Source: an uncultured Paracoccaceae bacterium (lineage in GTDB: Bacteria; Pseudomonadota; Alphaproteobacteria; Rhodobacterales; Rhodobacteraceae). Taken from it: DNA of 64,000 nucleotides. The translations under genes were made by a program, and so were the position numbers. Each line of letters opens with the position of its first letter. The first letter of the stretch is position 1. Below are positions 16,394 through 63,142 of this stretch, in pieces. The notes beneath the pieces are model-generated. The model searched no databases. It was not told the origin of the DNA and saw nothing but the letters and a program-made list of their open reading frames with translations. The DNA lies in assembly GCA_947494445.1 (NCBI GenBank), contig CANLVD010000002.1:248001-312000 (forward strand). The letters run 5' to 3'.

Positions 16394-16404
16394 CTCCGTG
16401 CTCC

Positions 16405-17373: not shown

Positions 17374-17408
17374 GCGCCACCTCCTGTACCTGTTGTCCGC
17401 TGTAGGAT

Positions 17409-17440
17409 GCCTCCGGCGGGGATATTTCAACCAAGAAGTA
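17409..17440 (+). repeat. Dispersed intergenic repeat, left arm of an inverted pair
   Basis: This arm begins GCCTCCGGCGGGGATATTT and ends CCAAGAAGT. Its reverse complement recurs at 17544-17574 with three mismatches over 31 bases. Related copies occur at 43097 and 50555. It lies between the DAO gene (stop 17637) and the ureohydrolase gene (start 17373). Confidence 0.85.
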
Positions 17441-17504
17441 AGGCATTTGAGTCAGATCCGAGGGGCGGCACAGGCGGGGATGCCGATGACCGTCCAAGGT
17501 CTCG

Positions 17505-17535
17505 ACCCTTCGTCTGTCGCGTTCAGGCGAAGGGT
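17505..17535. repeat. Small inverted repeat nested between the repeat arms
   Basis: ACCCTTCG at 17505-17512 and CGAAGGGT at 17528-17535 form an 8-bp perfect inverted repeat with a 15-base loop. It lies in the middle of the larger 31-bp inverted pair, so the whole 17409-17574 segment could fold as a compound hairpin in RNA. It may end transcription from the upstream GS-DAO pair. Confidence 0.6.
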
Positions 17536-17543
17536 TGCCATTC

Positions 17544-17574
17544 ACTTCTTGGCCCAAATATCCCCGCCGGAGGC
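17544..17574 (-). repeat. Dispersed intergenic repeat, right arm of an inverted pair
   Basis: Reverse-strand copy of the 31-base element at 17409-17440. The three mismatches are clustered between the ATATTT and CCAAGAAGT parts. The arms are separated by about 103 bases. Confidence 0.85.
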
Positions 17575-17636
17575 AAATCCGGCCCGCAGGGCCTGAACGG
17601 AATGGCCCGGAACGGGCTGCACTAATCCTGCCCATG

Positions 17637-18926
17637 CTACACGCCCATCCGGTCACGCAGCCCATACCACCAGCTGCCCAGCACCGAATAGGGCACGCGC
17701 AAGGTCTTGCCGCCGGGAAACGGCTTCCATTTCAGGGCCGCAAATGTGTCGAAGCGCGTCAGGTCTCCCTGAATGGCCTGTGCCAGAATGCGCCCGAACA
17801 GGTGACTTCCCGTGACCCCATGGCCTGAATATCCATGCGCAAAATAGGTCGAGGACCCAAGTCGTCCCATCTGCGGTACACGGGTGAAGCTGAGCGCAAA
17901 ATTGCCCGACCAGGCGTGATCAATCCGGACACCGTCAAGCTGTGGGAAAACCTTGATCATGTTCCGCGTCAGTTTCTTGCGAATATCCGACGGATCTGCA
18001 CCCCCATAGACCGTGCCACCACCGAACAGCAGTCGGCCATCGGCACTCAGCCGGTAATAGTCCAGAATGTAGCGCACATCCTCGACGCACAGACCGGTGG
18101 GCAAAAGTGCCTCGGCATCTTTCAGAGGTTCGGTCGCCATCACCTGTGTGGAACAGGGCAGAACGCGGCGGCTCAGTTCGGGCAGCGCATCACCCAGATA
18201 AGCATTGCCGCAGACGATGAGCGTCTTGCAGCGGACCTCACCCTTAGCCGTTTTCACAACTGGATCCTGCCTGTCCCAATCGACATGGGTGACTGCGCTC
18301 TGCTCATGGATGATCCCGCCGCAGGCCTCAAAGGCGGCAGCCTCGCCCAGCGCAAGGTTGAGCGGATGCATATGCCCGCCCGTGTGATCGATCATGCCAC
18401 CAGCATAGACATCCGAGGCCACATGATCGCGCATCTGATCGCGCGAGATCATCTCGTGATCATCCATGCCGAACCGCTTCCAAAGCGCCTTTTTGGCCTC
18501 CAGTTCACGCATATGCGCATCTGTATAGGCTGCAAACAGGTTGCCTTCACGCAGATCGCAGTCAATCTTGTAGCGCGCGATGCGGTCCCGAATGATTTTT
18601 CCGCCTTCCTGCACAAGACCGGCTACGAAAGCCTGCGTTGTCGCGCCATACTCGCGCTCGATCTTGTCGAGCGAGGCGTTCAGGCCATTGACGATCTGCC
18701 CACCGTTGCGCCCCGAGGCCCCCCAGCCGATTTTCGCGGCCTCAATCAGACGCACCTGAAAACCAGCCTCGGCCAGATCGAGGGCGGCTGAAAGGCCTGA
18801 AAACCCTCCACCGATCACGCAGATATCGGTCTCGATCGTTCCTTGCAAGGCAGGGCGTTCCGGCACCGGATTGGCGGATGCGGCATAATATGAGCCGGGA
18901 TAACTGCCGTCACCAAATCCGCTCAT
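17637..18926 (-). CDS. FAD-dependent DAO-family oxidase, PuuB-like (second copy)
   Basis: 429 residues. The start is fixed by a TGATG overlap with the stop of the second glutamine synthetase gene; a GTG one codon further upstream is unlikely. FAD motif GGGFSGLSAALDLAEAG and WGASGRNGGQIVNG match the first copy at 13707 closely, including the N-terminal YPGSYYAASANP. Probably an oxidase of gamma-glutamylated amines with a different chain or branch preference. Confidence 0.85.
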   Translation of the reverse strand: MSGFGDGSYPGSYYAASANPVPERPALQGTIETDICVIGGGFSGLSAALDLAEAGFQVRLIEAAKIGWGASGRNGGQIVNGLNASLDKIEREYGATTQAFVAGLVQEGGKIIRDRIARYKIDCDLREGNLFAAYTDAHMRELEAKKALWKRFGMDDHEMISRDQMRDHVASDVYAGGMIDHTGGHMHPLNLALGEAAAFEACGGIIHEQSAVTHVDWDRQDPVVKTAKGEVRCKTLIVCGNAYLGDALPELSRRVLPCSTQVMATEPLKDAEALLPTGLCVEDVRYILDYYRLSADGRLLFGGGTVYGGADPSDIRKKLTRNMIKVFPQLDGVRIDHAWSGNFALSFTRVPQMGRLGSSTYFAHGYSGHGVTGSHLFGRILAQAIQGDLTRFDTFAALKWKPFPGGKTLRVPYSVLGSWWYGLRDRMGV

Positions 18927-20272
18927 CACACCACATCCAGATAGCTGGCCAGTTCAAATTCCGAGACACGGGCAGCAAACCGCGCCATCTCCTGCCGTTT
19001 TGCCATGGCAAATCCTGTCATCAGCGGCTCGGGCAGATAGCGACGCAGCACCTCGCCCGCTTCAAAAGCAAGGACCGACTGCTCCCAGCTGTCTGCCAGT
19101 CGTGGCAGGTCAAGCTCATAGAGGTTTCCACTGACAGCCGGTGCCGGTGCCTGTGCTGCCTCCAGCCCGTGGAACATGCCAGCAAGCACGCTGGCCAGAA
19201 CCAGATAGGGGTTGGCATCCGCACCCGAGACACGGTGTTCGATCCGCCGTGCCGCATTGGGCCCGTCAGGAATACGCACAGCAGCGAAACGATTTTCGTA
19301 AGCCCAGCCGATCTGCCCCGGTGCATGAGCGCCGCTCAACCGGCGATAGGAATTCAGATGGGGTGCGAAGAACAGTGCAGCCTCGGGCATGGTTTCGAGC
19401 AGACCTGCCACCGCATGATGCAAACGTTCGGAGCCTTCCGGCCCGCCATTGTCGAAGATGTTCGCCCCTGTTTCGTCCAGCACGGAGATATGCACATGCT
19501 GGCCCGAGCCGAACTTGTTGGCCAAGGGTTTCGCCATGAAACTTGCAACAAGTCCATGGGCGCGGGCCACGCCACGCACGATGGTCTTGAACAGGATCGC
19601 ATCATCTGCGGCTTTCAAAGCATCATCGACATGGGCAAAGTTGATCTCGAACTGGCTGGGGCCGCCTTCGGCAATGGCCGCACCAATGGGAATGTCAGCC
19701 AGTTCGCATGCTGCCTCAATATCAGCCAGCACTGCCTCAAACCCGTCCAGCGCATCAATCGACAGAACACCATCTGCAATCACAGGCGCGCCTGTCAAAG
19801 GATGCTCGGGCGTTTTGGCGTTCTCGGCAGGCAACAGGTAGAACTCAAGCTCCATCGCCACCACCGGGCGCAGACCTTTGGCCTGAAACCGCTTCAGCAC
19901 GCTGGCCAGTACCTGGCGCGGATCGGTCTCGCTAGGGCGCCCATCCGTGTGCTCAAACCACATCGGCAGCAATGCCGAGCCGGGGTTGAGCCATGTCATC
20001 GGGATCGCAGCCCGCCCGGTCGGGCGTACGATGGCATCGGCATCCCCCATCAGAACCATCGGATTGTCTTCGACATCGCGCCCCCAGATGTCCTGAAGCG
20101 ACAGCGACAGGGGCATGCGCATCCCGTCGAGCGCCTTTGGCGCATCGGCACGGGGCAGGCGTTTGCCACGCAGGCAACCATTTATATCAACGATGGCAAT
20201 GCGCAGCGAGCGCAATGCGGGATCAACGTCAAAGGCATTGAGCAGGGATCGAGGAATGGGGGTGTCCGACAT
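18926..20272 (-). CDS. Glutamine synthetase family, PuuA-like (second copy)
   Basis: 448 residues from ATG 20272, with CCGGAG upstream. GS segments include VAMELEFYLLPAEN, GGPSQFEINFAHVDDALKA and KFGSGQHVHISVLD. It is divergent from the first copy (for example VDINGCLRGKRLP in place of ISDIAGMSRGKAMP), so the two enzymes may take different amines. It is translationally coupled to the second DAO gene. The 132-bp gap upstream separates it from the divergent SMP-30 gene. Confidence 0.85.
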   Translation of the reverse strand: MSDTPIPRSLLNAFDVDPALRSLRIAIVDINGCLRGKRLPRADAPKALDGMRMPLSLSLQDIWGRDVEDNPMVLMGDADAIVRPTGRAAIPMTWLNPGSALLPMWFEHTDGRPSETDPRQVLASVLKRFQAKGLRPVVAMELEFYLLPAENAKTPEHPLTGAPVIADGVLSIDALDGFEAVLADIEAACELADIPIGAAIAEGGPSQFEINFAHVDDALKAADDAILFKTIVRGVARAHGLVASFMAKPLANKFGSGQHVHISVLDETGANIFDNGGPEGSERLHHAVAGLLETMPEAALFFAPHLNSYRRLSGAHAPGQIGWAYENRFAAVRIPDGPNAARRIEHRVSGADANPYLVLASVLAGMFHGLEAAQAPAPAVSGNLYELDLPRLADSWEQSVLAFEAGEVLRRYLPEPLMTGFAMAKRQEMARFAARVSEFELASYLDVV

Positions 20273-20404
20273 GGGACGGCTCCGGATGGCAATTGAACAC
20301 AAGGATATCACAGCATAAACCGGCGTCCAGCGCTGGTTGCGTCACCGCTTGCCAGTATGGAGTCCGATCTACAGATCTGCTCAAAGCGCTAAGGGGGTTT
20401 GAAA

Positions 20405-21315: not shown

Positions 21316-22635
21316 TCAGGCGACATGCTGATCCAGTGTTTTGCGGATCTTGTCCGTGATCTCATCGATATGCGCGCGCTCCGAGATGAACATCGGGGCC
21401 ACAATCGCCACGTCTCCGGTGAACTTCACATGGCAACCGTTCCAGAACAGATCTTTCTGCATCTGGGTGCCGCGCTTGCCCGGTGCTGTGTCCTTGTGGA
21501 CCTCGACACCTGCCATCATGCCCTCGGTCCGCACATCCATGACCAGTTCATGGTCAAAGAGCGAATGCATCGCGTCCTGGAAGTAGGGTGTCATCTCTGC
21601 CGCGCGGGCAAAAAGCCCCTCTTCTTCATAGATGCTGAGCGAGGCAAGACCCGCGGCACAAGCGGCCGGGTGGCCGGAATAGGTATAGCCATGGAAGAAC
21701 TCGATCGCACCCGGTGCCGAGGTGTCGGTCACGGTCTCATAAATCTCGTCCTTCACCGCCACAGCGCCCATCGGCATGGAGCCGTTGGTGATCGCCTTGG
21801 CCATGGTCATCATATCCGGCACAACGCCGTATTTCTGCGAGGCAAACGGCGTGCCCAGACGACCAAATCCGGTGATGACCTCATCGAACACCAGCAAAAT
21901 GCCGTGCTCGTCACAGATTTCGCGCAGCCGCTCAAGATATCCGACAGGTGGAACAAGCGTACCGGTCGACCCTGCGACAGGCTCCACGAAACAGGCGGCA
22001 ATCGTGTTGCCTCCATAGGTCGCGCAATGCCGCTCCAGATCATTGGCAAGCTCGCGGCCGTGCTGTGGCTGGCCCTTCACGTTCAGGTCATCGCCGGTGA
22101 AGGTGTGGCGCATGGTGACCACGTTGGGCATGGTGACCGGGAATGTACGGCGGTTGTTGACCATGCCCGACAGGCTGACGCCACCGATGTTCACACCGTG
22201 ATAGGCCCGCTCGCGGCTGACGAACCGGTGACGGTTGTCACCACGTGCTGAATGGTACGCCATCACGATCTTGAGCGCGGTATCAATCGCCTCGGAACCA
22301 GAGTTCACGAAGAACACGTGATCCATACCCTCGGGCGTCAGTTGAGCCACCTTGTCGGCCAGCGCGAAGGAGGCCGGATGCCCCAACCCGAATGGCGCGG
22401 TGTAGGTGTTGATCTGCATCTGGCTGTGCACGGCCTCGATGATCTTTGGGTGGCAGTGCCCGGCAGGCGAGCAGAACAATCCGCTGGAACCATCAATCAC
22501 CTGCGTGCCGCGGTGCGACGTGGCGTAGACCCCTTTGGCCTCGACCAAAAGGCGCGGATCGGCCTTGAAGCCACGGTTGTCCGTGAACGGCATCCACTGT
22601 TTCTCAAGACTGTTGGGCACAACATCATGGGCCAT
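21316..22635 (-). CDS. Class III omega-amino acid:pyruvate-type aminotransferase
   Basis: 439 residues. PLP fold type I, class III. The PLP lysine is K280 in MTMAKAITNG, and the pyridine-binding aspartate is D251 in LVFDEVITGFGRLG. The N-terminal QWMPFTDNRGFKADPRLL resembles beta-alanine (omega-amino acid):pyruvate transaminases. It lies downstream of a cupin and a DAO oxidase gene, which start at an IclR-type site. It may transaminate an omega-amine or beta-amino acid formed in the same route; taurine:pyruvate activity is possible but not indicated. Confidence 0.85.
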   Translation of the reverse strand: MAHDVVPNSLEKQWMPFTDNRGFKADPRLLVEAKGVYATSHRGTQVIDGSSGLFCSPAGHCHPKIIEAVHSQMQINTYTAPFGLGHPASFALADKVAQLTPEGMDHVFFVNSGSEAIDTALKIVMAYHSARGDNRHRFVSRERAYHGVNIGGVSLSGMVNNRRTFPVTMPNVVTMRHTFTGDDLNVKGQPQHGRELANDLERHCATYGGNTIAACFVEPVAGSTGTLVPPVGYLERLREICDEHGILLVFDEVITGFGRLGTPFASQKYGVVPDMMTMAKAITNGSMPMGAVAVKDEIYETVTDTSAPGAIEFFHGYTYSGHPAACAAGLASLSIYEEEGLFARAAEMTPYFQDAMHSLFDHELVMDVRTEGMMAGVEVHKDTAPGKRGTQMQKDLFWNGCHVKFTGDVAIVAPMFISERAHIDEITDKIRKTLDQHVA

Positions 22636-22751: not shown

Positions 22752-23108
22752 CTACTCGGGAACCGAGACAATCACCCATTGTTTCCTGACCCTGTCCTTG
22801 ACGGTCCAAACCGGCTGCAAGCCATTGTCCATCACGAAACCATCACCTGCGCAGACTTCGAACTCGGTCCCGTCCTGAAGTCGGATCGTCGCGGATCCTT
22901 CCAGAATATGGCAGTATTCGATCTGCCCGTTCTGGGGTCCGTGAAAGACGCCAGCGGTACTTTCCCAGACACCTGCCCGGACCTGATCATCCGCGCCCTT
23001 GAAATGAACCCAGACCGTATGCTCTGGCGCGCCGGAAATCGCGACGCCGGAAGTGTCCTGTGATACCGCCTCAGGGGATTGGTCCGAGAATTTGGTGAGA
23101 GTGGTCAT
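22752..23108 (-). CDS. Small cupin-domain protein
   Basis: 118 residues forming one cupin barrel (GQIEYCHILEGSATIRLQDG, then CAGDGFVMDNGLQPVWTV), of the cupin_3 type related to the ureidoglycine aminohydrolase cupin domain. Single-domain cupins of this kind often accompany DAO and GS genes in polyamine loci; a sensor or small catalytic role is possible. It lies between the DAO gene (49 bp upstream) and the aminotransferase gene (116 bp downstream). Confidence 0.8.
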   Translation of the reverse strand: MTTLTKFSDQSPEAVSQDTSGVAISGAPEHTVWVHFKGADDQVRAGVWESTAGVFHGPQNGQIEYCHILEGSATIRLQDGTEFEVCAGDGFVMDNGLQPVWTVKDRVRKQWVIVSVPE

Positions 23109-23157: not shown

Positions 23158-24453
23158 TCAGGCTCCATTCGTGACTGTGTCGAACCTGTCCTTGAGGGTC
23201 ATCGCAGGTGCAGCCAGCGGGATCAGGCGGCGTGTGATCCCGTGCATCGGAATTGGCGAGATCGGAAGCACCGGGAACGGCAAGTCATCACCGGATGTGC
23301 CCAGCAATTTGGACGACAGGGCCCGCCCCATCACAGACGTCATCGCAATGCCACGCCCGCTGAACCCGATGCCTGCCAGCACACCGGGTGCTGGCTCATG
23401 CATATGGGGCATCATCTCGGGCGTCACGGCGATCCGGCCAGCCCATTTCCGCTCGACCGGGATGTCGGCAATCTGCGGAAAGACGGTTTTCAGCCCCCTG
23501 CGCAACCGGCCATAGCCGCCCAAAGTGTCGACGTTGTCATTGCTGCCCACACACCCGAAAATCAGACGGCCATCGCGGTCATATCGGGCATAGTAAATTG
23601 CCAGCCGGGAGTCCGACAGCGTGACCGATCCCGGAAGCACTGTCCTGCGCTGATCCTCGCTCAACGGTGTTGTCGCGATGGAGATGCTGACCAAAGGGTG
23701 AAAGGTTTTTTTCAGATCGGGCCAAAGGTCATCGGTGTAGGCATTGGTCGTCAGAACCACATTCTCAGCCGTGATCTCACCGGCCCCGGCCTTCGCACGC
23801 CACTTGCCATCCAACCGCTCAAGCCTGGTGACAGGGGTGTCCCGAAACATTTGCGCGCCCCGGGCAATGGCGGCCTTTGCATAGCCGCGTGTGAGCGACA
23901 GGGGATGGACATGGCCACCAGCCTTGTGGCGCAGGGCCCATTTGTAGGCGGTGGAGCCGCTGGCGTCGTAAACCTCGGTGCCTTCCATCTCGGTGATGTC
24001 TGCGCCAGCATCGGACCAGGCTTTGCCAAGCGCACGCATTGTTTTAACCGCCCGACGCGTATGGGCCGCCTGTACCCAGCCAGCTTGCACCGCATCACAA
24101 TCCACCTGATAGGTCCGAATGTCGGAGAACAGATCATCTGCTGCCGTCAAAGTGGTCCGCACAAGATTGTCTCCATGGCGAGCACCCAATATCCGGCCCA
24201 GCTCTGCTGGTGTCTTGCGCCAGATCGGGTTGCACTGCCCCCCGCTGCGGCCAGATGCTCCCCAGCCGATGTTTTTTCCATCAACCAGCGCGACAGACAC
24301 GCCCGCCTCTGCCAGACCAAGCGCGGTTCGACAGCCCGTCAATCCACCACCAACCACCAGCACATCCACAGAAAGCGAGGTTTTCAAAGGCTCGACATCC
24401 GGCGCTGACTGGGCTGTTGTTGTCCAATGAATTTCGTCTTTGACCGTCATCAT
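23158..24453 (-). CDS. FAD-dependent DAO-family oxidase (third copy)
   Basis: 431 residues from ATG 24453 (a second ATG follows at once). FAD motif GGGLTGCRTALGLAEAG and WGASGRSGGQCNP. It is more divergent than the other two copies and lacks their YPxSYYA leader. No GS partner is adjacent, so it probably oxidises a free amine or N-substituted amino acid rather than a gamma-glutamylated one. It heads the operon DAO - cupin - aminotransferase, with a palindromic 17-mer 18 bp upstream of its start. Confidence 0.85.
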   Translation of the reverse strand: MMTVKDEIHWTTTAQSAPDVEPLKTSLSVDVLVVGGGLTGCRTALGLAEAGVSVALVDGKNIGWGASGRSGGQCNPIWRKTPAELGRILGARHGDNLVRTTLTAADDLFSDIRTYQVDCDAVQAGWVQAAHTRRAVKTMRALGKAWSDAGADITEMEGTEVYDASGSTAYKWALRHKAGGHVHPLSLTRGYAKAAIARGAQMFRDTPVTRLERLDGKWRAKAGAGEITAENVVLTTNAYTDDLWPDLKKTFHPLVSISIATTPLSEDQRRTVLPGSVTLSDSRLAIYYARYDRDGRLIFGCVGSNDNVDTLGGYGRLRRGLKTVFPQIADIPVERKWAGRIAVTPEMMPHMHEPAPGVLAGIGFSGRGIAMTSVMGRALSSKLLGTSGDDLPFPVLPISPIPMHGITRRLIPLAAPAMTLKDRFDTVTNGA

Positions 24454-24470
24454 CCGCTCGCATTTCAATA

Positions 24471-24487
24471 GTTTCATATTTCGAAAC
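24471..24487. promoter_or_regulatory. Putative IclR operator A (DAO-cupin-aminotransferase operon)
   Basis: GTTTCATATTTCGAAAC: perfect 5-bp arms GTTTC/GAAAC with a 7-base centre. It matches the site at 25743 in 14 of 17 positions. It lies immediately upstream of the DAO start and divergent from the IclR gene. Confidence 0.65.
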
Positions 24488-24656
24488 ATATGTATTGTAT
24501 AAAAAAACTATTCCCCTATTCTGTTTCAGTCAACATTTGTTTGGATCGAGGGTCCAAGCGTTTCATAACTTGGCGCAAAGCGCAGGATTCCCCCACCCGG
24601 CAGGCGTTCCAGCCAAGCACATTGTTCACAAACAGCACTCACCCAGAAGTATATCT

Positions 24657-24767: not shown

Positions 24768-25550
24768 ATGCAGAGCTCGATCGTTCACAAGTTGTTGGGA
24801 CTGTTGTCGGTCATCAGTGAAGCGCAGAAGCCGCTGACTTTCTCCGAAGTGGTCGACAAGACGGGTCTCAACAAAAGCACGATCCACAGATTGCTGGCCA
24901 TCGGCGTGGAAGAGCGGATGCTGCGCTATGACAGCCACCGAAAGGTGTATCTGCTGGGGCCACGGGTCTTCGATCTCGTGCGCAACGCCTATAACGGCTA
25001 CGACATTCAGGCGATAGCACTTGATGAAATGATCCGTCTGTTTGACCTGTACGATGCGAATGTGACCATCGGCGTGCCCGGCGGGCATGAGGTGATCTAT
25101 CTGCGCGTCCTGGAATCCGCCCGCTCCATGGGCGGTGTCCAGCGTCCGGGCATGCGCGATCCGATCCACTGTTCCGCATCGGGCAAGGCTCTCTTGGCTT
25201 ATTACCCCGACAAGGTGCTGACCTCTCTGCTCAAGAACTATGACTTCTCGCAACTGACCGAGCGCACGATCACAGACATAGACGCCTTCAAGGCGGAACT
25301 GGAATTTGTGCGTGAACATGGCTACGGCAAGAATGACCGGGAGGAGTACGACCATTTCCTCGGCATCTCGGCTCCGGTTTTCAACTATATTGGCGAACCC
25401 ATTGCCGTGCTGAACATCTGGTCATCCCACTCCCGCCATACCATGACCGATCTGATGGGCTGGAGCGGCGAGCTGAAAGCCTCAGCCGCACGCGTGACCG
25501 AAATGATCGGTGGTGTCGCGCCCGACGTCGCGTCCTTGCGGGCCCTCTGA
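24768..25550 (+). CDS. IclR-family transcriptional regulator
   Basis: 260 residues. The N-terminal winged helix-turn-helix (LTFSEVVDKTGLNKSTIHRLLA, about residues 24-45, is the helix-turn-helix) is followed by the IclR effector domain with the usual CSASGKALLAYYP segment. It lies between a divergent amine-oxidation operon and a downstream ABC transporter operon. Related 17-bp sites occur before both, before its own gene, and before the hydroxylase gene at 29186, making it the likely regulator of all four units. The ligand is unknown. Confidence 0.9.
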   Translation: MQSSIVHKLLGLLSVISEAQKPLTFSEVVDKTGLNKSTIHRLLAIGVEERMLRYDSHRKVYLLGPRVFDLVRNAYNGYDIQAIALDEMIRLFDLYDANVTIGVPGGHEVIYLRVLESARSMGGVQRPGMRDPIHCSASGKALLAYYPDKVLTSLLKNYDFSQLTERTITDIDAFKAELEFVREHGYGKNDREEYDHFLGISAPVFNYIGEPIAVLNIWSSHSRHTMTDLMGWSGELKASAARVTEMIGGVAPDVASLRAL

Positions 25551-25725: not shown

Positions 25726-25742
25726 CGAAACGCGGAATGCTA

Positions 25743-25759
25743 GTTTCATAATACAAAAC
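25743..25759. promoter_or_regulatory. Putative IclR operator C (ABC transporter operon)
   Basis: GTTTCATAATACAAAAC differs at only two positions from the reverse complement of the 29154 site (15 of 17 identical). It lies 43 bp upstream of the transporter binding-protein start. The remaining 25551-25742 segment holds a short 6-bp hairpin (25575-25591) without a T-tract and no gene. Confidence 0.65.
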
Positions 25760-25802
25760 TAAATGCTGCCCGCGCACTAAAAGTTTGTTCAGGGAGAACA
25801 GC

Positions 25803-26801
25803 ATGAAAAAATTCACACTCGGCATGATTGCCGGCGCCATGACCGCCATCGCTGCAGGACCCGCAGTCGCAGATGGCCATGGTGAGATCACCGTGGCCTA
25901 CTTTCTTGAGTGGCCAATGCCCATGATGGTTGCCAAAGCGTCGGGCGCATATGACGAAGCGCTTGGTATGAAGGTCAATTGGGTTTCCTTCGAGACCGGT
26001 ACCGCGATGAGCGCCGCGATGGCCTCCGGCGACGTACAGATTGCCCTGTCACAAGGTCTTCCACCATTCGTGGTTGCAACCTCGGGCGGTCAGGACCTTC
26101 AGCTGGTCGATGTGGCTGTGAGCTACGCCGAGAACCAGGGCTGTGCGGTACATTCCGATCTGGAAATCGACAAGGATTCCGCAGGCGAGCTGGCTGGCAA
26201 GAAAGTTGCTGTTCCGCTGGGCACCGCTGCTCACTACAGCTTCATTCGTCAGATGAACCACTTTGGCGTTCCTCTTGAGAGCCTCCAGATCGTCGACATG
26301 CCTCCACCAGAAGGCGCCAACGCGCTTGCTCAGAAATCTGTTGATTTCGCATGTGGCTATGGCGGCGGCTGGGCCCGTATGCAGGAAGTCGGTGACGTCC
26401 TTCTCAACGGTGCTGAAAAGCAAGAGATCGGCATCCTCGTGTTTGATGTGACATCCGTTCCTGCGTCCTTTGCAGCTGAAAACGGTGAAACGCTGGCCAA
26501 ATTCCTCAAGGTCACTGCTGATGCGAACGCTGCTTGGGCTGCAAACCCAACGGACGAAATGATGGCCACGATTGCTGAAGAAGCAGGCATGGATCTGGAC
26601 GCTGCCAAGGCCGCGATCGCAACCATGTCGTTCCCGACAATCGACGAGCAGCTTTCTGAAGCCTGGCTCGGCGGTACTGCTGCGCCATTCATGAAAGGCG
26701 TCGCTGACGTCTTCGTTGAAGCAGGTTCCATCGATTCCGCGCTCGACAGCTATGAAGATGCTCTGAACACCGGCCCGCTTGAAGCGGCCAAGGGCATGTA
26801 A
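25803..26801 (+). CDS. ABC transporter periplasmic binding protein, TauA/SsuA-like
   Basis: 332 residues from ATG 25803, with GGGAGA upstream. A signal peptide (MKKFTLGMIAGAMTAIAAGP, cleavage near AVA-DG) is followed by a NMT1/TauA-type binding fold (EWPMPMMVAKASGAYDEALG, SGDVQIALSQGLPPFVVA). Family members bind taurine, sulfonates, nitrate or pyrimidine precursors; the ligand here is not evident. The gene is followed by a strong hairpin and then the ATPase and permease genes. Confidence 0.9.
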   Translation: MKKFTLGMIAGAMTAIAAGPAVADGHGEITVAYFLEWPMPMMVAKASGAYDEALGMKVNWVSFETGTAMSAAMASGDVQIALSQGLPPFVVATSGGQDLQLVDVAVSYAENQGCAVHSDLEIDKDSAGELAGKKVAVPLGTAAHYSFIRQMNHFGVPLESLQIVDMPPPEGANALAQKSVDFACGYGGGWARMQEVGDVLLNGAEKQEIGILVFDVTSVPASFAAENGETLAKFLKVTADANAAWAANPTDEMMATIAEEAGMDLDAAKAAIATMSFPTIDEQLSEAWLGGTAAPFMKGVADVFVEAGSIDSALDSYEDALNTGPLEAAKGM

Positions 26802-26810
26802 TCAGCCTTG

Positions 26811-26838
26811 AAGGGCGCAGGGGAAACCCTGCGCCCTT
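26811..26838 (+). terminator. Intercistronic hairpin after the binding-protein gene
   Basis: A 12-bp perfect stem (26811-26822 with 26827-26838) and a GAAA tetraloop, followed by TCTTCTT. It lies between the binding protein and the ATPase genes. It probably reduces read-through or protects the upstream mRNA, so that the binding protein is made in excess. Confidence 0.8.
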
Positions 26839-26916
26839 TCTTCTTGCGGCGACCGGATAATTTAGCCGGGCGACCATTGCCGAACAAATCATTGCAACAG
26901 ACTGGAAGGGGAACCG

Positions 26917-27723
26917 ATGTCTGGGCTGTCCCTACAAGACATATCGATGCGCTTCGACCTGCCCAACGGGTCAGCCGTGCAAGCGCTGGAAAATGTTTCG
27001 CTTGACCTGAAGCCAGGCGAATTGATGAGCGTGCTCGGGCCCTCTGGCTGCGGCAAAACCACGTTGCTGAACATCGTGGCAGGTTTTCTTGCACAGACCA
27101 GCGGCAAGCTGGTGCTCAACGACCACGAGATCCACGGTCCCGACGCCGAACGCGGCATGGTGTTCCAGAAAGGTGCCCTGTTCGAGTGGATGTCGGTGCG
27201 TGACAACGTCGGATTTGGCCCCTCGATGAAGGGCATGCCCCGCGGCGAGAAAGCTAAGATTGTCGATCACCTTCTGGACGTCGTCGGCCTTCAGGACTTC
27301 AAGGAAAAAGCGGTCTACGAGCTTTCGGGCGGCATGCAGCAGCGCGTGGCCCTTGCCCGCTGTCTGGCCAATGACCCCGACGTGATCCTGATGGACGAGC
27401 CGCTGGGCGCGCTGGATGCGTTGACCCGTGAAAAGATGCAAAGCCTTGTGCTTAAGCTCTGGAAAGAGACCGGCAAGACCATCATCCTGATCACCCACTC
27501 GGTCGAGGAAGCCCTTCTTCTGGGCGAGCGTCTGATCGTGATGGCCCCTCGTCCGGGACGGATCCACAAGGAATACCGTCTGCCGTTTGCCGAACTGGGC
27601 GTTGGCGCGGACCTGCGAGAGGTCAAGAAACATCCTGAATTTGGCCCCAAGCGCGATGAGATCCTCGCGATGATCTGGGACATGGAAGAAGAGATTATGG
27701 GCCGGACGGAGGAAGCATCATGA
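26917..27723 (+). CDS. ABC transporter ATPase, TauB/SsuB-like
   Basis: 268 residues. Walker A GPSGCGKT at 41-48, signature LSGGMQQRV, Walker B VILMDEPLGALD, and the H-loop ITHSVEEALLLG. Closest by pattern to nitrate/sulfonate/taurine importer ATPases. The start has GGAAGGGGAA upstream. The stop overlaps the permease start (ATGA). Confidence 0.92.
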   Translation: MSGLSLQDISMRFDLPNGSAVQALENVSLDLKPGELMSVLGPSGCGKTTLLNIVAGFLAQTSGKLVLNDHEIHGPDAERGMVFQKGALFEWMSVRDNVGFGPSMKGMPRGEKAKIVDHLLDVVGLQDFKEKAVYELSGGMQQRVALARCLANDPDVILMDEPLGALDALTREKMQSLVLKLWKETGKTIILITHSVEEALLLGERLIVMAPRPGRIHKEYRLPFAELGVGADLREVKKHPEFGPKRDEILAMIWDMEEEIMGRTEEAS

Positions 27724-28994
27724 CCGGATTGTTTGTTCTGTTCATCTACGTCGGCATCTTTGTCGGTTCCTTTTTCGTCGTCACGAAAGTAATTGATCGG
27801 GCAACCGCAAAAGACTTCACCTCCCTCAAGACCGTGACCTTCGGGGATGAAAGCGCTGTGCGGCCCAATCGGATTGCTGGTGTTCTGTCCATCCTGACGA
27901 TCTTCCTGATCTGGGGGATGTTCACTGGCTCCTCTCTCTTGCCAAAATTCCTTCATGCACCTGGCCCGTTTGTCGGCACACTGGAATTCACCTACACGGC
28001 TGAGGCCGATGGTCAGCGCGATGATGGCACGGTTACGGTTGTGATCTATCCAAGGGACTCGGAAACCGAAGCCCCGGAGGTTGATCCCGGTGACGGCTTT
28101 GCCAAGAACGACAGCTCGGCAATCGCCAAATGGCGGACAGGTCTGGTCCGCGTGGATGCCAATGACGAGATCAAGAAAAAAGACGGCGCCGAAGTGGTGG
28201 CCATCAACGGCCAGCCCATTGCGCGCGGCGAGACCGTCAAGATCGAGAACGGCACGGTCACGCTGTCTGACAAGGGCACCCCGAACCTTGCGCCCTATCG
28301 TGGCTGGCAGATGGAACCGCTTTATCTGCCCGCGCCCGAAACCGTGTGGAGCCGGACATTGCAGGTGGTCAGCGAAGGGTTCCGCAGCTTCACCCTTTGG
28401 GAGCATCTAGGCTACTCGCTGTTTCGCGTGATCGCGGGGTTCCTGCTGGGCGCGCTTGTGGGCATCCCCTTGGGATATGCGATGGGCCTCAGCGACTGGT
28501 TCCGCGGCTGGTTTGACCCGATCGTGGAATTCATGCGCCCGGTCCCGCCGTTGGCTCTGATCCCCTTGGTCATCATCTGGTTCGGCATCGGTGAGACAGG
28601 AAAGATCATCCTGTTGTTCCTCGCGGCCCTGTGGATCATGGCCATCGCATCACGATCTGGTGTCTCAGGCGTGAACATCTCGAAGGTGCATGCTGCCTAT
28701 TCACTGGGGGCGAGCAAATGGCAGATCATGCGGCATGTGATCGTGCCCAACTCCCTGCCGGAGATTTTCACCGGTGCACGTGTTGCCATGGGCGTTTGCT
28801 GGGGCACGGTTGTTGCGGCCGAACTGGTCGCAGCGGAACAGGGTGCAGGTATGATGATCATGGTCGCCTCGCGCTTCCAGAACACCGACATCGTGATCCT
28901 GGGCATCATCCTGATCGGCGTGATCGGCTTCGGGATCGACATGCTGATGCGATGGGCAGAGCGTCTTCTGGTGCCTTGGAAAGGCAAGGCCTGA
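27720..28994 (+). CDS. ABC transporter permease with extra N-terminal domain
   Basis: 424 residues, against about 260-280 for TauC/SsuC permeases. Residues from about 210 onward form a normal BPD_transp_1 domain with the EAA-type loop (AAYSLGASKWQIMRHVIVP). Before it lie a membrane segment at 4-24, a second at about 55-73, then a soluble insert of about 125 residues (GTLEFTYTAEADGQRDDGTV to APYRGWQMEPLYLP). That insert, by topology, is probably periplasmic. It may contact the binding protein or substrate. The extra part is in frame and shows no sign of gene fusion error. Confidence 0.88.
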   Translation: MTGLFVLFIYVGIFVGSFFVVTKVIDRATAKDFTSLKTVTFGDESAVRPNRIAGVLSILTIFLIWGMFTGSSLLPKFLHAPGPFVGTLEFTYTAEADGQRDDGTVTVVIYPRDSETEAPEVDPGDGFAKNDSSAIAKWRTGLVRVDANDEIKKKDGAEVVAINGQPIARGETVKIENGTVTLSDKGTPNLAPYRGWQMEPLYLPAPETVWSRTLQVVSEGFRSFTLWEHLGYSLFRVIAGFLLGALVGIPLGYAMGLSDWFRGWFDPIVEFMRPVPPLALIPLVIIWFGIGETGKIILLFLAALWIMAIASRSGVSGVNISKVHAAYSLGASKWQIMRHVIVPNSLPEIFTGARVAMGVCWGTVVAAELVAAEQGAGMMIMVASRFQNTDIVILGIILIGVIGFGIDMLMRWAERLLVPWKGKA

Positions 28995-29144: not shown

Positions 29145-29153
29145 AAAACACAA

Positions 29154-29170
29154 GTTTTGCATTATAAAAC
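29154..29170. promoter_or_regulatory. Putative IclR operator D (hydroxylase operon)
   Basis: GTTTTGCATTATAAAAC: perfect GTTTT/AAAAC arms around 7 bases. It overlaps the expected transcription start region of the promoter at 29116-29144, 15 bp before the hydroxylase start codon. Confidence 0.65.
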
Positions 29171-29185
29171 TTTGGAATCTGAACC

Positions 29186-30226
29186 ATGTCCGCCACCGAG
29201 ACCTCAGACCCTGCACCGTCTTCACCAAAGACCACGCCCTACTTGCCTGCAGGCTCTTCGCGGGACTGGAACTTCCACCCTGCTCTGCCCATTGGAATGT
29301 CGCCTGTCTTCGACATCCCATTCCGGGCGAAGGCCGCGTTCAAATGGATCATGGGCACATGGTTCAAGCTGACCCCACCGGTCAGCCACATGATCTTTGC
29401 AATCATCACATTCACCCTGTTCTGGCCCGCAATGACAGACATGCAAACCCTCTCATGGGGTTGGGTGCTTCAGATCCTGGCCATTCACTATGGCGCTGTG
29501 CTCCTGCTGGGCGGTGGGCTTCATCTGTATCTCTATGTCTTTGCCAGCCAGAAGATGCGCCTGAAATTCGACATCCGCCCCATGGAAAAAAGTGCCCGCT
29601 TCACCTTCGGCAATCAGGTCTGGGACAACGTCTTCTGGTCGCTCGCCTCGGGCGTCCCGATCTGGACGGCCTGGGTCATCCTGTATTTCCATGCAGCCGC
29701 CAATGACTGGATCCCGCGCCTCGACAGCATCAGTGCGTCACCGCTCTGGTTCGTGCTGTTTTTCGTCCTGTTGCGCTTCTGGCAATCGTTTCACTTCTAC
29801 TGGATCCACCGTCTGATCCACATCCCGTGGCTGTTTCGCAACGTGCATCACCTGCACCACCGCAACGTCAATGTCGGGCCATGGTCGGGGCTTGCGATGC
29901 ACCCGGTCGAACATCTGCTTTATTACTCTGCCATTCTGATCCATTTCGTCGTGCCGTCGCACCCGCTGCACGTGATCTTTCACATGTATGCCTTGAGCCT
30001 TGGCGCCCTCTTTTCCCATGCGGGATTTGAAAAGCTGCTGATCAGGGACAAGGAGACGGTGAAGGCGGGCTCGTTTCACCACCAGCTTCATCACCGGTAT
30101 TTCGAATGCAACTATGGCAATGAGGAAATGCCGCTGGACCGCTGGTTCGGCAGTTTCCACGATGGCACGCCGGAGGCCACTCAACGCATCCGCGCGCGCA
30201 AAAAGCTGATCTTCGCGCGCAAATGA
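29186..30226 (+). CDS. Membrane di-iron hydroxylase (sterol desaturase/fatty acid hydroxylase family)
   Basis: 346 residues with about four membrane segments and the histidine boxes of the family: HRLIH, HHLHHRN and HHQLHHRYFE, plus a conserved His in HPVEH. These bind a di-iron centre that uses O2 and electrons to hydroxylate an alkyl C-H bond. The start is taken as ATG 29186. The next gene encodes a flavin/2Fe-2S reductase that can deliver electrons, making a two-component monooxygenase likely. The natural substrate cannot be inferred; it need not be a sterol or lipid. Confidence 0.87.
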   Translation: MSATETSDPAPSSPKTTPYLPAGSSRDWNFHPALPIGMSPVFDIPFRAKAAFKWIMGTWFKLTPPVSHMIFAIITFTLFWPAMTDMQTLSWGWVLQILAIHYGAVLLLGGGLHLYLYVFASQKMRLKFDIRPMEKSARFTFGNQVWDNVFWSLASGVPIWTAWVILYFHAAANDWIPRLDSISASPLWFVLFFVLLRFWQSFHFYWIHRLIHIPWLFRNVHHLHHRNVNVGPWSGLAMHPVEHLLYYSAILIHFVVPSHPLHVIFHMYALSLGALFSHAGFEKLLIRDKETVKAGSFHHQLHHRYFECNYGNEEMPLDRWFGSFHDGTPEATQRIRARKKLIFARK

Positions 30227-30288
30227 TCCGTCAAGCCACCCATGCATGACAGGTCCCGCGCCCGGTACATCCAACGGGGTCTCCAGCA

Positions 30289-31248
30289 ATGGCCCTGATC
30301 AACGTGAAAGTCGCCGGGATCATTGTCGAGGCCGAAGGTGTGAAATCATTCCTGCTGGCCCGGACCGGACTTTTCCCGATGCCCCGATACGCGCCCGGCG
30401 CGCACATAGACATTCATTGCGGCAAGGGGATCATCCGTCAGTACTCGCTCTGCGGCGATCCATCCGACCGGCGGCGTCTGATGATCGCGGTCAAGATGGG
30501 CGAGTCCTCCCGGGGTGGATCAGACCTGATGCACAAGACGGTGCGCGTCGGTGACCGGCTGGAGATCGGCAGCCCTCGCAACACGTTCCCACTGGATGAA
30601 AGTGCAGCGCATACGATCCTCATTGCGGGTGGCATCGGCATCACACCGATCATTGCGATGGCCGACCAGCTCCATGTGCAGGGCCGGTCCTTTGCTCTTC
30701 AGTATTTCACGCGCTCCGCACAGCACACGGCCTTTCGACGACGGCTGCTAAAAGGGCCATATGGCGATCAGGTCACCTGCCACGAAGGGCTGAACATCTC
30801 ACAAACGAGCGCGGAGCTTGCCGCCTGCCTGAACCAGCCAACAGCCGGCACGCAGGTCTATATCTGCGGCCCGGGCCCCTTCATGGACACGGCCGAACAG
30901 CTTGCCAAGGCAACTCTGCCCGATCAATCCGTGCATCTGGAACGCTTCGCCGCCAATCCCGCACTGTCCGGCGCGCCCACAGCCCCCTTCCGCGTGACGC
31001 TTGCCCGTTCAGGGGTGACACTGGAGGTGGGTGAAGACGAAACAATCCTCGACGTGCTCGATGAAAACGGCATCCTCGCCGCCTTTTCCTGCGAGCAGGG
31101 CGTTTGCGGCACCTGCGTCACTCAGGTCATCGACGGCACGCCGGATCACAGGGACAGTTTCCTGTCCTCAAAACACCGCAGCCCGGGCAAGCAGATGTGC
31201 ATCTGCGTCTCCCGCGCGAAGGGAGAGGCACTGATTCTGGACCTATGA
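30289..31248 (+). CDS. PDR/VanB-family ferredoxin reductase (flavin, NAD, 2Fe-2S)
   Basis: 319 residues. Flavin-binding motif RQYSLCGDP, NAD-binding IAGGIGITPIIAMA, and a C-terminal plant-type ferredoxin domain with CEQGVCGTC plus a later Cys (KQMCICVS). This is the architecture of phthalate dioxygenase reductase and VanB, which feed electrons to oxygenases. It follows the di-iron hydroxylase by 62 bp on the same strand and is its likely partner. Confidence 0.9.
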   Translation: MALINVKVAGIIVEAEGVKSFLLARTGLFPMPRYAPGAHIDIHCGKGIIRQYSLCGDPSDRRRLMIAVKMGESSRGGSDLMHKTVRVGDRLEIGSPRNTFPLDESAAHTILIAGGIGITPIIAMADQLHVQGRSFALQYFTRSAQHTAFRRRLLKGPYGDQVTCHEGLNISQTSAELAACLNQPTAGTQVYICGPGPFMDTAEQLAKATLPDQSVHLERFAANPALSGAPTAPFRVTLARSGVTLEVGEDETILDVLDENGILAAFSCEQGVCGTCVTQVIDGTPDHRDSFLSSKHRSPGKQMCICVSRAKGEALILDL

Positions 31249-31456
31249 CACAGTCATCCCTCTGAAAAGTATCGAAAATTGTCCGCACTCTGCCACTTTC
31301 GCCGCAAAACCCATCCGAAAGGCTAGGCGGTCCTCCGCTTAGGCAGTCATCAATCTCTATTAATCGCTTTCCTGCCGCAATCCACTCCCGGTTGCATGTC
31401 ATTCCTTGCCCCGCGATCACAGAATCGCTGAGCGAAAATTGCAAGGAGCCCCCAAT

Positions 31457-32350
31457 ATGCAGTTTGTGGAATTTACAATTACTGGTGATGTGAATGTTCA
31501 CGTCACGATTACCGAGAATGACAACGGCACGCTGACCTTTGATGTGGTCGTGCTAGATGATACCGGCAGCATCGGCGATCTTCAGGGACTGTTCTTCGAT
31601 CTTGCCGATGACAGCATCGCGGACAGCCTGTCTGCCGAAGGCGCGGATGTCACCTACACCAAATTCAACGACGATGGCGTGACCAAGCTGACAAGCGGCG
31701 TGAACATCAATGGCGAAGTGCTCAACGAATACGGCAAATTCGACGGCGGCATCCAGTTCGGCACCGCTGGCATCGGCAAGGACGACATTCAGGAAACCAG
31801 CTTCGTGCTGTCCTCCACCGACGGGCCACTGACGCTCGCCGATTTCCTGTCACAGGATATGGCCATCCGTTTGACGTCTGTCGGCGAAGAGGGCGGCAGC
31901 CGCGACGACAGCCTCAAGCTCGGCGGCTCGGTTCCCGAAGACCCCACAACCGAAGAACCCCCGGTGGAGCCTCCGGTTGTCAACACGGCGCTTGATGACT
32001 TCCTGACAGTTTTCGCATCCGAGGATGCAGGCAATCTGGAAACACTCGATGATGGCGCGACAACCGTGCTGGCCAATGACCTGACCGACGCGGTCGCCTA
32101 CACCGGTGCCGTCACTGCCGTGAACGGCGATGCGCTCAGCGTGGCCGCTGTGGTCGAGGGCAGCAACGGCGGCTTCATGACCATCTATTCCGACGGCTCG
32201 ATCGACTTCGACGCCGCGGGCGAATTCGATGACCTCGAAGAAGACGCCGAGATTGTCACCCAGTTCTCCTACACAATCGACGGCGGAGACACCGCAGACG
32301 TCTTTGTCACCGTCATCGGCGAAGACAGCGGCGACGGCGGCTTCTTCTGA
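31457..32350 (+). CDS. Acidic Asp-rich protein with cadherin/VCBS-like region
   Basis: 297 residues from ATG 31457, with AAGGAG upstream. Very rich in Asp, Glu, Gly and Thr. Residues 1-165 form a beta-rich region (VHVTITENDNGTLTFDVVVL, FDLADDSIADSLSAEGADV), then a Pro/Glu linker (PEDPTTEEPPVEPPV), then a VCBS/cadherin-like unit (NDLTDAVAYTGAVTAVNGD, YSDGSIDFDAAG). There is no Sec signal. The composition suggests a calcium-binding protein exported by type I secretion, but no transporter genes are near. Function not known. Confidence 0.75.
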   Translation: MQFVEFTITGDVNVHVTITENDNGTLTFDVVVLDDTGSIGDLQGLFFDLADDSIADSLSAEGADVTYTKFNDDGVTKLTSGVNINGEVLNEYGKFDGGIQFGTAGIGKDDIQETSFVLSSTDGPLTLADFLSQDMAIRLTSVGEEGGSRDDSLKLGGSVPEDPTTEEPPVEPPVVNTALDDFLTVFASEDAGNLETLDDGATTVLANDLTDAVAYTGAVTAVNGDALSVAAVVEGSNGGFMTIYSDGSIDFDAAGEFDDLEEDAEIVTQFSYTIDGGDTADVFVTVIGEDSGDGGFF

Positions 32351-37980: not shown

Positions 37981-39762
37981 ATGACACGTATGACGACCGA
38001 AGAAGCCTTCGTAAAAGTCCTCCAGCGCCACGGCATCGACACGGCATTCGGGATCATCGGCTCGGCCATGATGCCGATCTCCGATCTGTTCCCGGCCGCC
38101 GGCATCAAGTTCTGGGACTGTGCGCATGAATGCAACGCCGGCATGATGGCCGATGGCTTCACCCGTGCCTCTGGCAAGATGTGCATGGCGATCGCCCAGA
38201 ACGGCCCCGGCATCACCAATTTCGTGACGCCCGTGAAAACCGCCTACTGGAACCACACACCAATGCTGCTGGTCACACCGCAGGCCGCCAACAAGACCAT
38301 CGGCCAGGGCGGCTTTCAGGAAATCGAGCAAATGAAACTGTTCGAGGACATGGTCTGCTATCAGGAAGAGGTCCGCGATCCTTCCCGCATGGCCGAAGTG
38401 CTGAACCGGGTGATCGAAAAGGCGTGGCGTGGATCGGCCCCTGCCCAGATCAACGTCCCGCGCGACTACTGGACGCAAGTCATCGACATCGACCTGCCGC
38501 AGGTTGTCCAGCTTGAGCTTCCCGCAGGCGGCCCCTCGGCCGTATCGGAAGCTGCAAAACTGCTGACAGAAGCGAAGTTCCCCGTCATTCTGAACGGCGC
38601 AGGCGTTGTCATCGGTGGCGCGATCCCGGCCTCTCAGGCACTGGCCGAGCGGCTTGATGCGCCCGTGTGCTGTGGCTACCAGCACAATGACGCCTTCCCC
38701 GGCTCGCATCCCCTGTCCGTCGGCCCGCTTGGCTACAATGGTTCCAAGGCCGCGATGGAACTGATCGCCAAGGCCGATGTTGTGCTGGCGCTCGGCACTC
38801 GGCTGAACCCGTTCTCCACCCTGCCCGGCTACGGCATCGACTACTGGCCGCAGGACGCCAAGATCATTCAGGTCGACATCAACTCCGACCGGATCGGCCT
38901 GACCAAAAAGGTCTCCGTCGGCATTCAGGGCGACGCCAAACAGGTGGCCGAGGCCATCCTTGCCCAGCTGGGCGACACAGCCGGTGACGCAGGCCGCGAG
39001 GACCGCAAGAACCTGATCTCGACCACCAAGTCGCGCTGGCTGCAGGCCCTCAGCTCCATGGATCATGAGGATGACGATCCCGGCACAACCTGGAACGAAC
39101 GTGCCCGCAATGCCAAGCCCGATCACATGAGCCCACGCATGGCCTGGCGCGCGATCCAGTCAGCCCTGCCGAAAGAGGCGATCATCTCGTCGGACATCGG
39201 CAACAACTGCGCCATCGGCAACGCCTATCCAACCTTCGAGGAAGGGCGTAAATACCTCGCTCCCGGCCTCTTCGGCCCCTGCGGCTACGGCCTGCCCGCC
39301 ATCCTTGGCGCCAAGATCGCGAAACCATCGGTTCCGGTCGTGGGCTTTGCCGGTGACGGCGCGTTTGGCATCTCCATGAACGAGATGACCGCCTGCGGCC
39401 GCGGCGATTGGCCTGCGATTACCATGATCATATTCCGCAACTACCAGTGGGGCGCGGAAAAGCGCAACACGACCCTGTGGTATCAGGACAACTTCGTCGG
39501 CACCGAGCTGAACCTTGGCGTCGAATATGCCAAGGTGGCAGAAGGCTGCGGCCTGAAAGGCGTGCAGGTCCGCTCCATGGACGAACTGACAGAGGCGCTC
39601 AACACCGCCATCAAGGAGCAGATGAACGACAACGTCACCACCTTCCTTGAGGTCGTCCTCAATCAGGAACTGGGCGAGCCGTTCCGCCGCGACGCCATGA
39701 AGGCTCCGGTTGCCGTGGCTGGCATCGACGCTGCCGACATGCAGCAGCAGCGTGTCGGCTGA
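37981..39762 (+). CDS. xsc: Sulfoacetaldehyde acetyltransferase
   Basis: 593 residues, a full-length ThDP-dependent enzyme of the acetohydroxyacid-synthase type. The N-terminal pyrimidine-binding part includes HGIDTAFGIIGSAMMPISDL, and the ThDP/Mg site is GFAGDGAFGISMNEMT with FRNYQWGAEKRN. The sequence pattern is that of Xsc, which turns sulfoacetaldehyde plus phosphate into acetyl phosphate and sulfite. An alternative start lies at 37990. It is followed directly by ackA and shares the TauR-type control with the sulfite-disposal genes. Confidence 0.93.
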   Translation: MTRMTTEEAFVKVLQRHGIDTAFGIIGSAMMPISDLFPAAGIKFWDCAHECNAGMMADGFTRASGKMCMAIAQNGPGITNFVTPVKTAYWNHTPMLLVTPQAANKTIGQGGFQEIEQMKLFEDMVCYQEEVRDPSRMAEVLNRVIEKAWRGSAPAQINVPRDYWTQVIDIDLPQVVQLELPAGGPSAVSEAAKLLTEAKFPVILNGAGVVIGGAIPASQALAERLDAPVCCGYQHNDAFPGSHPLSVGPLGYNGSKAAMELIAKADVVLALGTRLNPFSTLPGYGIDYWPQDAKIIQVDINSDRIGLTKKVSVGIQGDAKQVAEAILAQLGDTAGDAGREDRKNLISTTKSRWLQALSSMDHEDDDPGTTWNERARNAKPDHMSPRMAWRAIQSALPKEAIISSDIGNNCAIGNAYPTFEEGRKYLAPGLFGPCGYGLPAILGAKIAKPSVPVVGFAGDGAFGISMNEMTACGRGDWPAITMIIFRNYQWGAEKRNTTLWYQDNFVGTELNLGVEYAKVAEGCGLKGVQVRSMDELTEALNTAIKEQMNDNVTTFLEVVLNQELGEPFRRDAMKAPVAVAGIDAADMQQQRVG

Positions 39763-53648: not shown

Positions 53649-53712
53649 ACAGGTCCTTTGATGTCAGGGGGATGCGCGCGCTTGGGCGTCGCATCATCAC
53701 GAGGATGTTACC

Positions 53713-60849: not shown

Positions 60850-60850
60850 C

Positions 60851-61777: not shown

Positions 61778-61813
61778 GGTGCCCTCCCGGCAAAATATGA
61801 TTGTGAGGGGTAA

Positions 61814-61841
61814 GGCGGCGGGCCAATTTCAGCCCGCCGCC
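61814..61841 (-). terminator. Intercistronic hairpin after the sugar-binding-protein gene
   Basis: A perfect 10-bp stem, GGCGGCGGGC (61814-61823) with GCCCGCCGCC (61832-61841), 8-base loop, no T-tract. As in the operon at 25803, it lies just after a binding-protein gene and before the permease gene, so it likely lowers downstream expression or stabilises the upstream message. Confidence 0.75.
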
Positions 61842-61857
61842 GCTGGTCCAGAAGGAC

Positions 61858-63093: not shown

Positions 63094-63125
63094 GTTTTCC
63101 TCCCGCATGTATCCAAGTCGGATTG

Positions 63126-63142
63126 GTTTCAAATAGTGAAAC
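63126..63142. promoter_or_regulatory. Putative IclR-type operator, galactoside operon (site 1)
   Basis: GTTTCAAATAGTGAAAC, perfect 6-bp arms GTTTCA/TGAAAC. It lies 32 bp upstream of the binding-protein start. Confidence 0.65.

Follow-up and report, generated by a model that had tools for sequence, protein, structure and literature searches.

Most of the characterized enzymes of the FA_hydroxylase family (PF04116) act on lipids, and reductases of the PDR/VanB type usually partner Rieske oxygenases. In the window, i.e., the whole 64,000-bp stretch of DNA analyzed, a PF04116 gene (HYD) is found directly adjacent to a PDR/VanB-type reductase gene (RED) and close to genes for a TauABC-like importer. 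This raises the question of whether the two proteins work together, and on what kind of substrate. A limited literature search gave nothing specific on the HYD-RED cluster, and to our knowledge the electron donors of bacterial PF04116 enzymes are mostly unknown. The analysis found HYD-RED to be a genuine and well-conserved oxygenase pair, co-regulated within a catabolic regulon.

Identification of the Hydroxylase and the Reductase

HYD (29186–30226, forward strand) was identified by ORF call, Pfam match, histidine boxes and clade membership as an intact ORF encoding a membrane di-iron hydroxylase of 346 aa. The match to PF04116 was above the curated cut-off (E 7.8e-20; 72.1 bits, cut-off 31). 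The histidine boxes were located at residues 208–212 (HRLIH), 221–227 (HHLHHRN) and 298–307 (HHQLHHRYFE), and His 203, 208, 212, 221, 224, 225, 239, 299, 302, and 303 were invariant in an alignment of 27 family members. The Pfam score and the invariant histidines thus bear out a reading made earlier from the sequence alone (the sequence-only reading), which had placed HYD in the sterol-desaturase/fatty-acid-hydroxylase family by its histidine boxes. A PDB sequence search with HYD gave no match, and a fold search with its AlphaFold model (pLDDT 75, moderate) gave no usable match among solved structures. A second HYD-family gene in the same genome (G000:C7:16202-17146; loci L002 and L049), 47% identical to HYD, was located beside genes for a thiamine-diphosphate enzyme and a 3-hydroxyisobutyrate-dehydrogenase-like protein.

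RED (30289–31248, forward strand; Pfam match) starts within 66 bp of HYD and encodes 319 aa. Residues 6–319 were aligned to the structure 2PIA, a phthalate dioxygenase reductase (E 7e-59), and the FMN, NAD, C-terminal 2Fe-2S domain order of PDR/VanB reductases was found in both. RED also aligned, again over nearly its entire length, with the reductase portion of self-sufficient P450s. It contained the motifs RQYS, GGIGITP and CGPGPF and the cluster motif CEQGVCGTC...C, most residues of which were invariant among nine orthologs. The flavin, NAD and 2Fe-2S reductase motifs previously claimed for the gene after HYD were thereby confirmed. Downstream of RED, an acidic, repeat-like ORF (31406–32350) showed no Pfam match when tested from 31460.

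Conserved Linkage of HYD and RED

A scan of genome contigs detected about 20 HYD orthologs (62–75% identity), carried by marine alpha- and gammaproteobacteria. Their hosts were Roseobacter-type bacteria, besides contigs binned as Granulosicoccaceae, Cocleimonas and a Rhizobiaceae-group MAG, single-contig bin labels that may be wrong. In a tree of 165 sequences, which took in only orthologs that were long enough and no characterized lipid or carotenoid hydroxylases, the window HYD and 17 orthologs formed one clade with a support of 1.0. Besides HYD, the families recurring in the ortholog loci, by adjacency counts that rest on tblastn, were a DAO-type FAD oxidoreductase (14 loci), an IclR regulator (13), a cupin (11), dihydroxyacetone kinase (Dak; 10–11), RED (9), TauA/B/C-like importer proteins (6–8) and a PanB-like protein (6 as called genes, 7 by tblastn). 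Except for pairs in two or three loci no other family recurred, and no recurrent lipid-synthesis genes were found in these loci. The absence of a gene from a fetched locus is weak evidence because gene calls there are crude; two contigs were also represented twice, one as L080 and L194 and the other as L083 and L195. In L079, an ORF of 1068 aa (L079:3849-7055) combined reductive-dehalogenase-like 4Fe-4S cysteine motifs with a C-terminal PDR-type reductase domain.

RED orthologs (61–69% identity) were always located 3′ of HYD. The two genes were directly adjacent in the window and in L085, and in seven loci the order was HYD, PanB-like gene, RED (L075, L077, L080, L082, L086, L088, and L090). 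These nine loci are on contigs labeled alpha- and gammaproteobacterial; L086 belongs to Epibacterium ulvae U95, a culturable strain. In 9/9 ortholog loci the oxygenase gene beside RED was HYD, and a Rieske oxygenase was absent as a neighbor. Among 395 genomes of the host's family, RED was detected at E ≤ 1e-85 in one other genome, where it is located beside HYD, and at the same threshold the 385 genomes of the host's class contained no RED apart from the host's own. Thus, no close RED without HYD alongside was found at E ≤ 1e-85 in about 780 other genomes of the family and class samples, and by these counts the HYD-RED pair is rare but faithful. Together with the nine loci, this agrees with the pairing proposed in the sequence-only reading. 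The pair was also found beside ABC genes in other genomes, where that reading had suggested looking for it.

The linkage is not strict in the other direction. Several HYD orthologs, e.g., those of L073, L076, L084, and L089, had no adjacent RED, which shows that RED is not obligatory for HYD; donors other than RED can probably serve these orthologs. Such loci, together with the usual partnership of PDR/VanB reductases, would fit a RED that serves an unlinked Rieske oxygenase and stands beside HYD incidentally. That explanation is considered very improbable in view of the nine HYD-(PanB-like)-RED arrangements on alpha- and gammaproteobacterial contigs and the lack of any close RED found without HYD. 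RED is a dedicated reductase by its linkage, and it very probably passes electrons to HYD.

Shared Operator and Its Likely Regulator

The palindrome AGTTTTGYATTATRAAACT was found in the window at 25742–25760 and 29153–29171 with no mismatches in either copy. The copy 5′ of HYD (AGTTTTGCATTATAAAACT; 29153–29171, forward strand) ends 14 bp upstream of the gene, and the copy 5′ of the importer genes (AGTTTTGTATTATGAAACT; 25742–25760) lies on the reverse strand. Both were identified by window and genome scans and by sites in ortholog loci. About 0.05 matches at ≤3 mismatches are expected by chance in the 64-kb window. Across all 4.36 Mb of the genome, just two sites matched the palindrome at ≤2 mismatches, one at the importer and one at HYD, compared to none for a reversed control. 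The two exact copies, unique genome-wide at ≤2 mismatches, show that HYD and the importer share one operator type as claimed earlier, and this evidence is stronger than the earlier reader could know.

The window scan also detected a weaker copy, with three mismatches, where the FAD oxidoreductase gene begins (24470–24488, reverse strand). This gene (23158–24489, reverse strand), found in 14 ortholog loci, was identified by profiles as DAO-type and L-pipecolate-oxidase-like. The copy lies inside the called 5′ end of the ORF, yet upstream of a likelier start: an internal ATG pair at 24450–24453 precedes a usual-looking family start, so the ORF appears over-extended and its true start is probably at 24450–24453. 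For the orthologous gene, the operator copies of L080 and L083 match better, and those of L075 and L082 about equally well. In nine ortholog loci (L074, L075, L076, L077, L080, L081, L082, L083, and L086), operator-like sites with ≤3 mismatches preceded DAO, TauA, HYD, IclR, or Dak genes, as judged by the chance rate of the window (0.05 per 64 kb) and not by a shuffled control in those loci. The operator is likely read by the IclR-family regulator encoded at 24768–25550 (forward strand; Pfam match), whose gene is found together with HYD in the majority of ortholog loci.

Upstream in the window, a EutQ-like cupin gene (22752–23108, reverse strand; Pfam match) is conserved in the ortholog loci. 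The class III aminotransferase gene aptA (21316–22635, reverse strand; 577 bits, cut-off 500) is of uncertain regulon membership because it does not belong to the conserved gene set. A polyamine-like cluster on the minus strand (13707–20311) contained two glutamine-synthetase-like genes, an agmatinase-like gene and two DAO oxidoreductase genes. A galactoside cluster (52743–63132) contained genes for GH36, GH42, 2-keto-3-deoxygalactonokinase, an SDR and an ABC importer; a fatty acid desaturase gene (52743–53648) was also located inside it, and near it a weak palindrome at 63146 resembled the HYD operator.

Two components of related clusters were rejected as parts of the system in the window. 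The PanB-like gene is absent from the window genome, and the Dak homolog belongs to a sugar cluster on a different contig and has no operator. Both are points against the regulon model.

The Importer and Its Predicted Ligand

The importer genes (25803–28994, forward strand) were assigned by profiles to the TauABC superfamily. They encode a TauA-like binding protein (25803–26801; called from TTG 25785, the ATG at 25803 being better placed), a TauB-like ATPase (26917–27723) and a TauC-like permease (27720–28994) extended at its N terminus by about 150 aa. The permease orthologs were similarly long (421–445 aa). All three fell far below the equivalog cut-offs (TauA 141/304, TauB 279/357, and TauC 237/342 bits). 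TauB-like ATPase genes were located near HYD in 22 loci vs. far from it in 24; the adjacency of such a gene is not informative, since ABC ATPases are found near and far alike.

The nearest solved structure to the binding protein by sequence was E. coli TauA (E 2.7e-21), and its complex with taurine was the reference for the ligand comparison (PMC6906117). Three of the four taurine ligands tested were lost (Gln30, Glu106, and Thr132) and Asp205 was kept. In E. coli TauA, Gln30 binds the sulfonate and Asp205 contacts the amine of taurine (PMC6906117). Every cluster binding protein had Phe at the Gln30 position, with Glu106 and Thr132 replaced as well. A taurine or sulfonate ligand is therefore unlikely, and such compounds were rejected as the most likely substrate. 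The retention of Asp205 with the loss of most sulfonate ligands favors a cationic amine and makes a methylated amine plausible; a cationic methylated amine is tentatively suggested as the imported ligand. Of the amines and sulfonates previously proposed as candidates, the amines thus stay plausible and the sulfonates are unlikely. The small soluble substrate suggested at the same time, probably an amine, is plausible.

The sulfonate question arises because a true sulfoacetaldehyde acetyltransferase gene (xsc) and an acetate kinase gene are located 7–10 kb downstream of the cluster. Xsc (37981–39762) scored 937 bits against an equivalog cut-off of 676, and in L076 xsc and the MocR gene are also near, which would fit a cluster that is part of the breakdown of taurine or a related sulfonate. 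However, L076 was the only fetched ortholog locus besides the window with xsc; xsc and the acetate kinase gene are not conserved with the cluster, and the genome-wide scan found no operator at either. With the residue changes in the binding proteins, this makes a role in sulfonate breakdown unlikely.

The Wider HYD Family and a PanB-Like Companion

HYD relatives at 35–51% identity were found in 122 of the 395 sampled family genomes (E ≤ 1e-50) and in 113 plasmid records. In 162 loci the HYD-family gene was located amid catabolic genes and assorted importers. Beside HYD relatives, genes for a MocE-type Rieske ferredoxin and an FAD reductase were found in L181, L182, and L184–L187, and genes for a 2Fe-2S ferredoxin and an FAD reductase in L175–L177. 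Thus, RED is not the usual partner in the wider family, in which other clades use a Rieske- or plant-type ferredoxin with an FAD reductase. A small soluble substrate had been called unusual for this membrane family, a view contradicted by the 162 loci in catabolic clusters and by the MocDEF-like precedent. Such a role is not exceptional, and a small soluble substrate looks to be general for the PF04116 branch of HYD.

In L091–L099 and L102, HYD relatives were located beside genes that, judged by eye from their sequences, encode nucleoside importers and purine phosphorylases/deaminases, and in L036 and L051 beside AMP-nucleosidase- and adenine-deaminase-like genes; these neighbors would suggest a purine-related role for the clades concerned. 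In L113–L116, HYD relatives were mostly followed by genes resembling the MttB (trimethylamine-methyltransferase) family and ketopantoate reductase, a possible link to methylated amines.

The distribution of the family bears on the explanation that HYD hydroxylates lipids or lipid headgroups, similarly to OlsE or to sterol or carotenoid hydroxylases, and is beside the importer by chance. HYD is membrane-bound and matches PF04116, most characterized members of which have lipid substrates. Nevertheless, the operator is unique to HYD and the importer, HYD stays linked to genes for the importer, DAO, Dak, and IclR with no recurrent lipid-synthesis genes, and the wider family is found across catabolic clusters. 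A lipid substrate is accordingly considered improbable.

A PanB-like gene was located within 3.5 kb of HYD-family genes in 27 loci and at 3.5–8 kb in two. The family includes L082:11024-11863 and relatives in L075, L077, L086, L088, L090, L176, L177, L188, L190, and L193. In the Gemmobacter cluster L193 it occurs with HYD, importer, MocE and inositol 2-dehydrogenase genes. In R. leguminosarum L190 it follows MocDEF, where the oxygenase belongs to PF00487. The PanB-like family is thus found with membrane oxygenases that fall into two Pfam families. Its proteins lack Asp45, Asp84, and Glu114, which we take to be the magnesium ligands in ketopantoate hydroxymethyltransferase, and retain Glu181. 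The annotation as 3-methyl-2-oxobutanoate hydroxymethyltransferase is probably wrong, and the protein would be a companion of dealkylating oxygenases that perhaps handles formaldehyde.

Proposed Function

HYD-RED is, on balance, more likely than not an NADH-dependent membrane monooxygenase within a catabolic regulon, and HYD probably acts on the imported compound. In the proposed mechanism, the IclR-type regulator would sense the nutrient and three promoters would be freed (importer, HYD-RED, and FAD oxidoreductase). The importer would take up a small, probably cationic, amine-bearing molecule, and electrons would pass from NADH through the FMN and the 2Fe-2S cluster of RED to the di-iron center of HYD at the membrane. 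By analogy with MocDEF, the most likely target of hydroxylation by HYD would be a methyl group or another carbon adjacent to N or O in the imported molecule, which would then shed an alkyl group, most likely methyl, as an aldehyde; the chances of oxidative dealkylation and of plain hydroxylation by HYD are nearly balanced, with dealkylation slightly behind. The amine would subsequently be oxidized by the FAD oxidoreductase, and in related clusters Dak would channel the resulting C3 hydroxyketone to central metabolism.

Linkage of Dak in 10–11 ortholog loci and the marine hosts would also fit cleavage of an ether rather than an N-methyl group, e.g., in the glycerol-linked betaine headgroup of algal lipids, with the glycerol part passing to Dak. 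Alkylglycerol monooxygenase, of the same superfamily as HYD, cleaves glycerol ethers. The nearest described case in the family, MocDEF-like, removes a methyl group, and ether cleavage is regarded as quite unlikely. Within the preferred reading of HYD-RED as a monooxygenase of an imported compound, the most specific form is possible but rather doubtful. It would make HYD-RED the first demethylase or C-N/C-O-cleaving oxygenase for a dissolved methylated amine to consist of two proteins, an NADH reductase and a membrane di-iron enzyme. As such it would represent a large unrecognized catabolic FA_hydroxylase branch, in which a PanB-like partner, devoid of the magnesium site, would often take part and might deal with the formaldehyde released.

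If the proposed function is true, genes widely annotated as sterol desaturase and lipid metabolism in marine Rhodobacteraceae would encode oxygenases that open imported small nutrients, on a scale indicated by the 122 of 395 family genomes with a branch member, and an electron donor would be named for bacterial PF04116 enzymes. These results suggest that a mostly lipid-acting enzyme family also degrades small dissolved molecules, e.g., methylated compounds. The regulon, with one operator, one importer and one oxygenase pair, is a directly testable case.

Comparison With Known Systems

The mocDEF genes, known from Rhizobium and Sinorhizobium, are reported to encode a ferredoxin oxygenase system for rhizopine, in which MocD is described to convert 3-O-methyl-scyllo-inosamine to scyllo-inosamine (PMC2593844, PMC10107442). 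Clusters by LacI-type regulators on plasmids of S. meliloti and NGR234 were called mocDEF in a Mesorhizobium paper (PMC3538637), and the S. meliloti plasmid locus L184, with a PF04116-type HYD relative in such a setting, is a candidate match to this published mocDEF. Like HYD-RED, MocDEF pairs a membrane histidine-box oxygenase with an electron chain of its own, encoded in an inducible cluster through which a small water-soluble amine is taken up and degraded. At some loci of rhizobia and Paracoccus, MocE/MocF-type genes have as their neighbor a PF04116 member with 36% identity to HYD. However, R. leguminosarum MocD (L190) belongs to PF00487, whereas HYD belongs to PF04116, which rules out HYD as a canonical MocD. 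The MocDEF electron chain consists of a Rieske ferredoxin and an FAD reductase and that of HYD of one PDR-type protein; no MocE/MocF-like gene was found near HYD in the window, and unlike MocDEF the HYD cluster contains no inositol genes.

HYD shares the domain and histidine boxes of the FA_hydroxylase/sterol desaturase superfamily, but differs from its lipid-acting members in its catabolic setting with an importer and an amine oxidase and in belonging to a branch spread over catabolic clusters. RED resembles phthalate dioxygenase reductase and VanB in its full-length 2PIA match and domain order, but its partner is a membrane di-iron enzyme instead of a Rieske oxygenase. The importer is of the TauABC superfamily with E. 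coli TauA as the nearest solved structure, but differs from the taurine importer by its scores below the Tau cut-offs, the loss of three of four taurine ligands and the N-terminal extension of the permease. In glycine betaine monooxygenase (GbcAB), an oxygenase and a flavin/2Fe-2S reductase remove a methyl group from a quaternary amine. The likeness of HYD-RED to GbcAB is a functional analogy: the match of RED to the GbcB model was weak (62 of 500 bits), and GbcA is a soluble Rieske enzyme, whereas HYD is a membrane di-iron enzyme.
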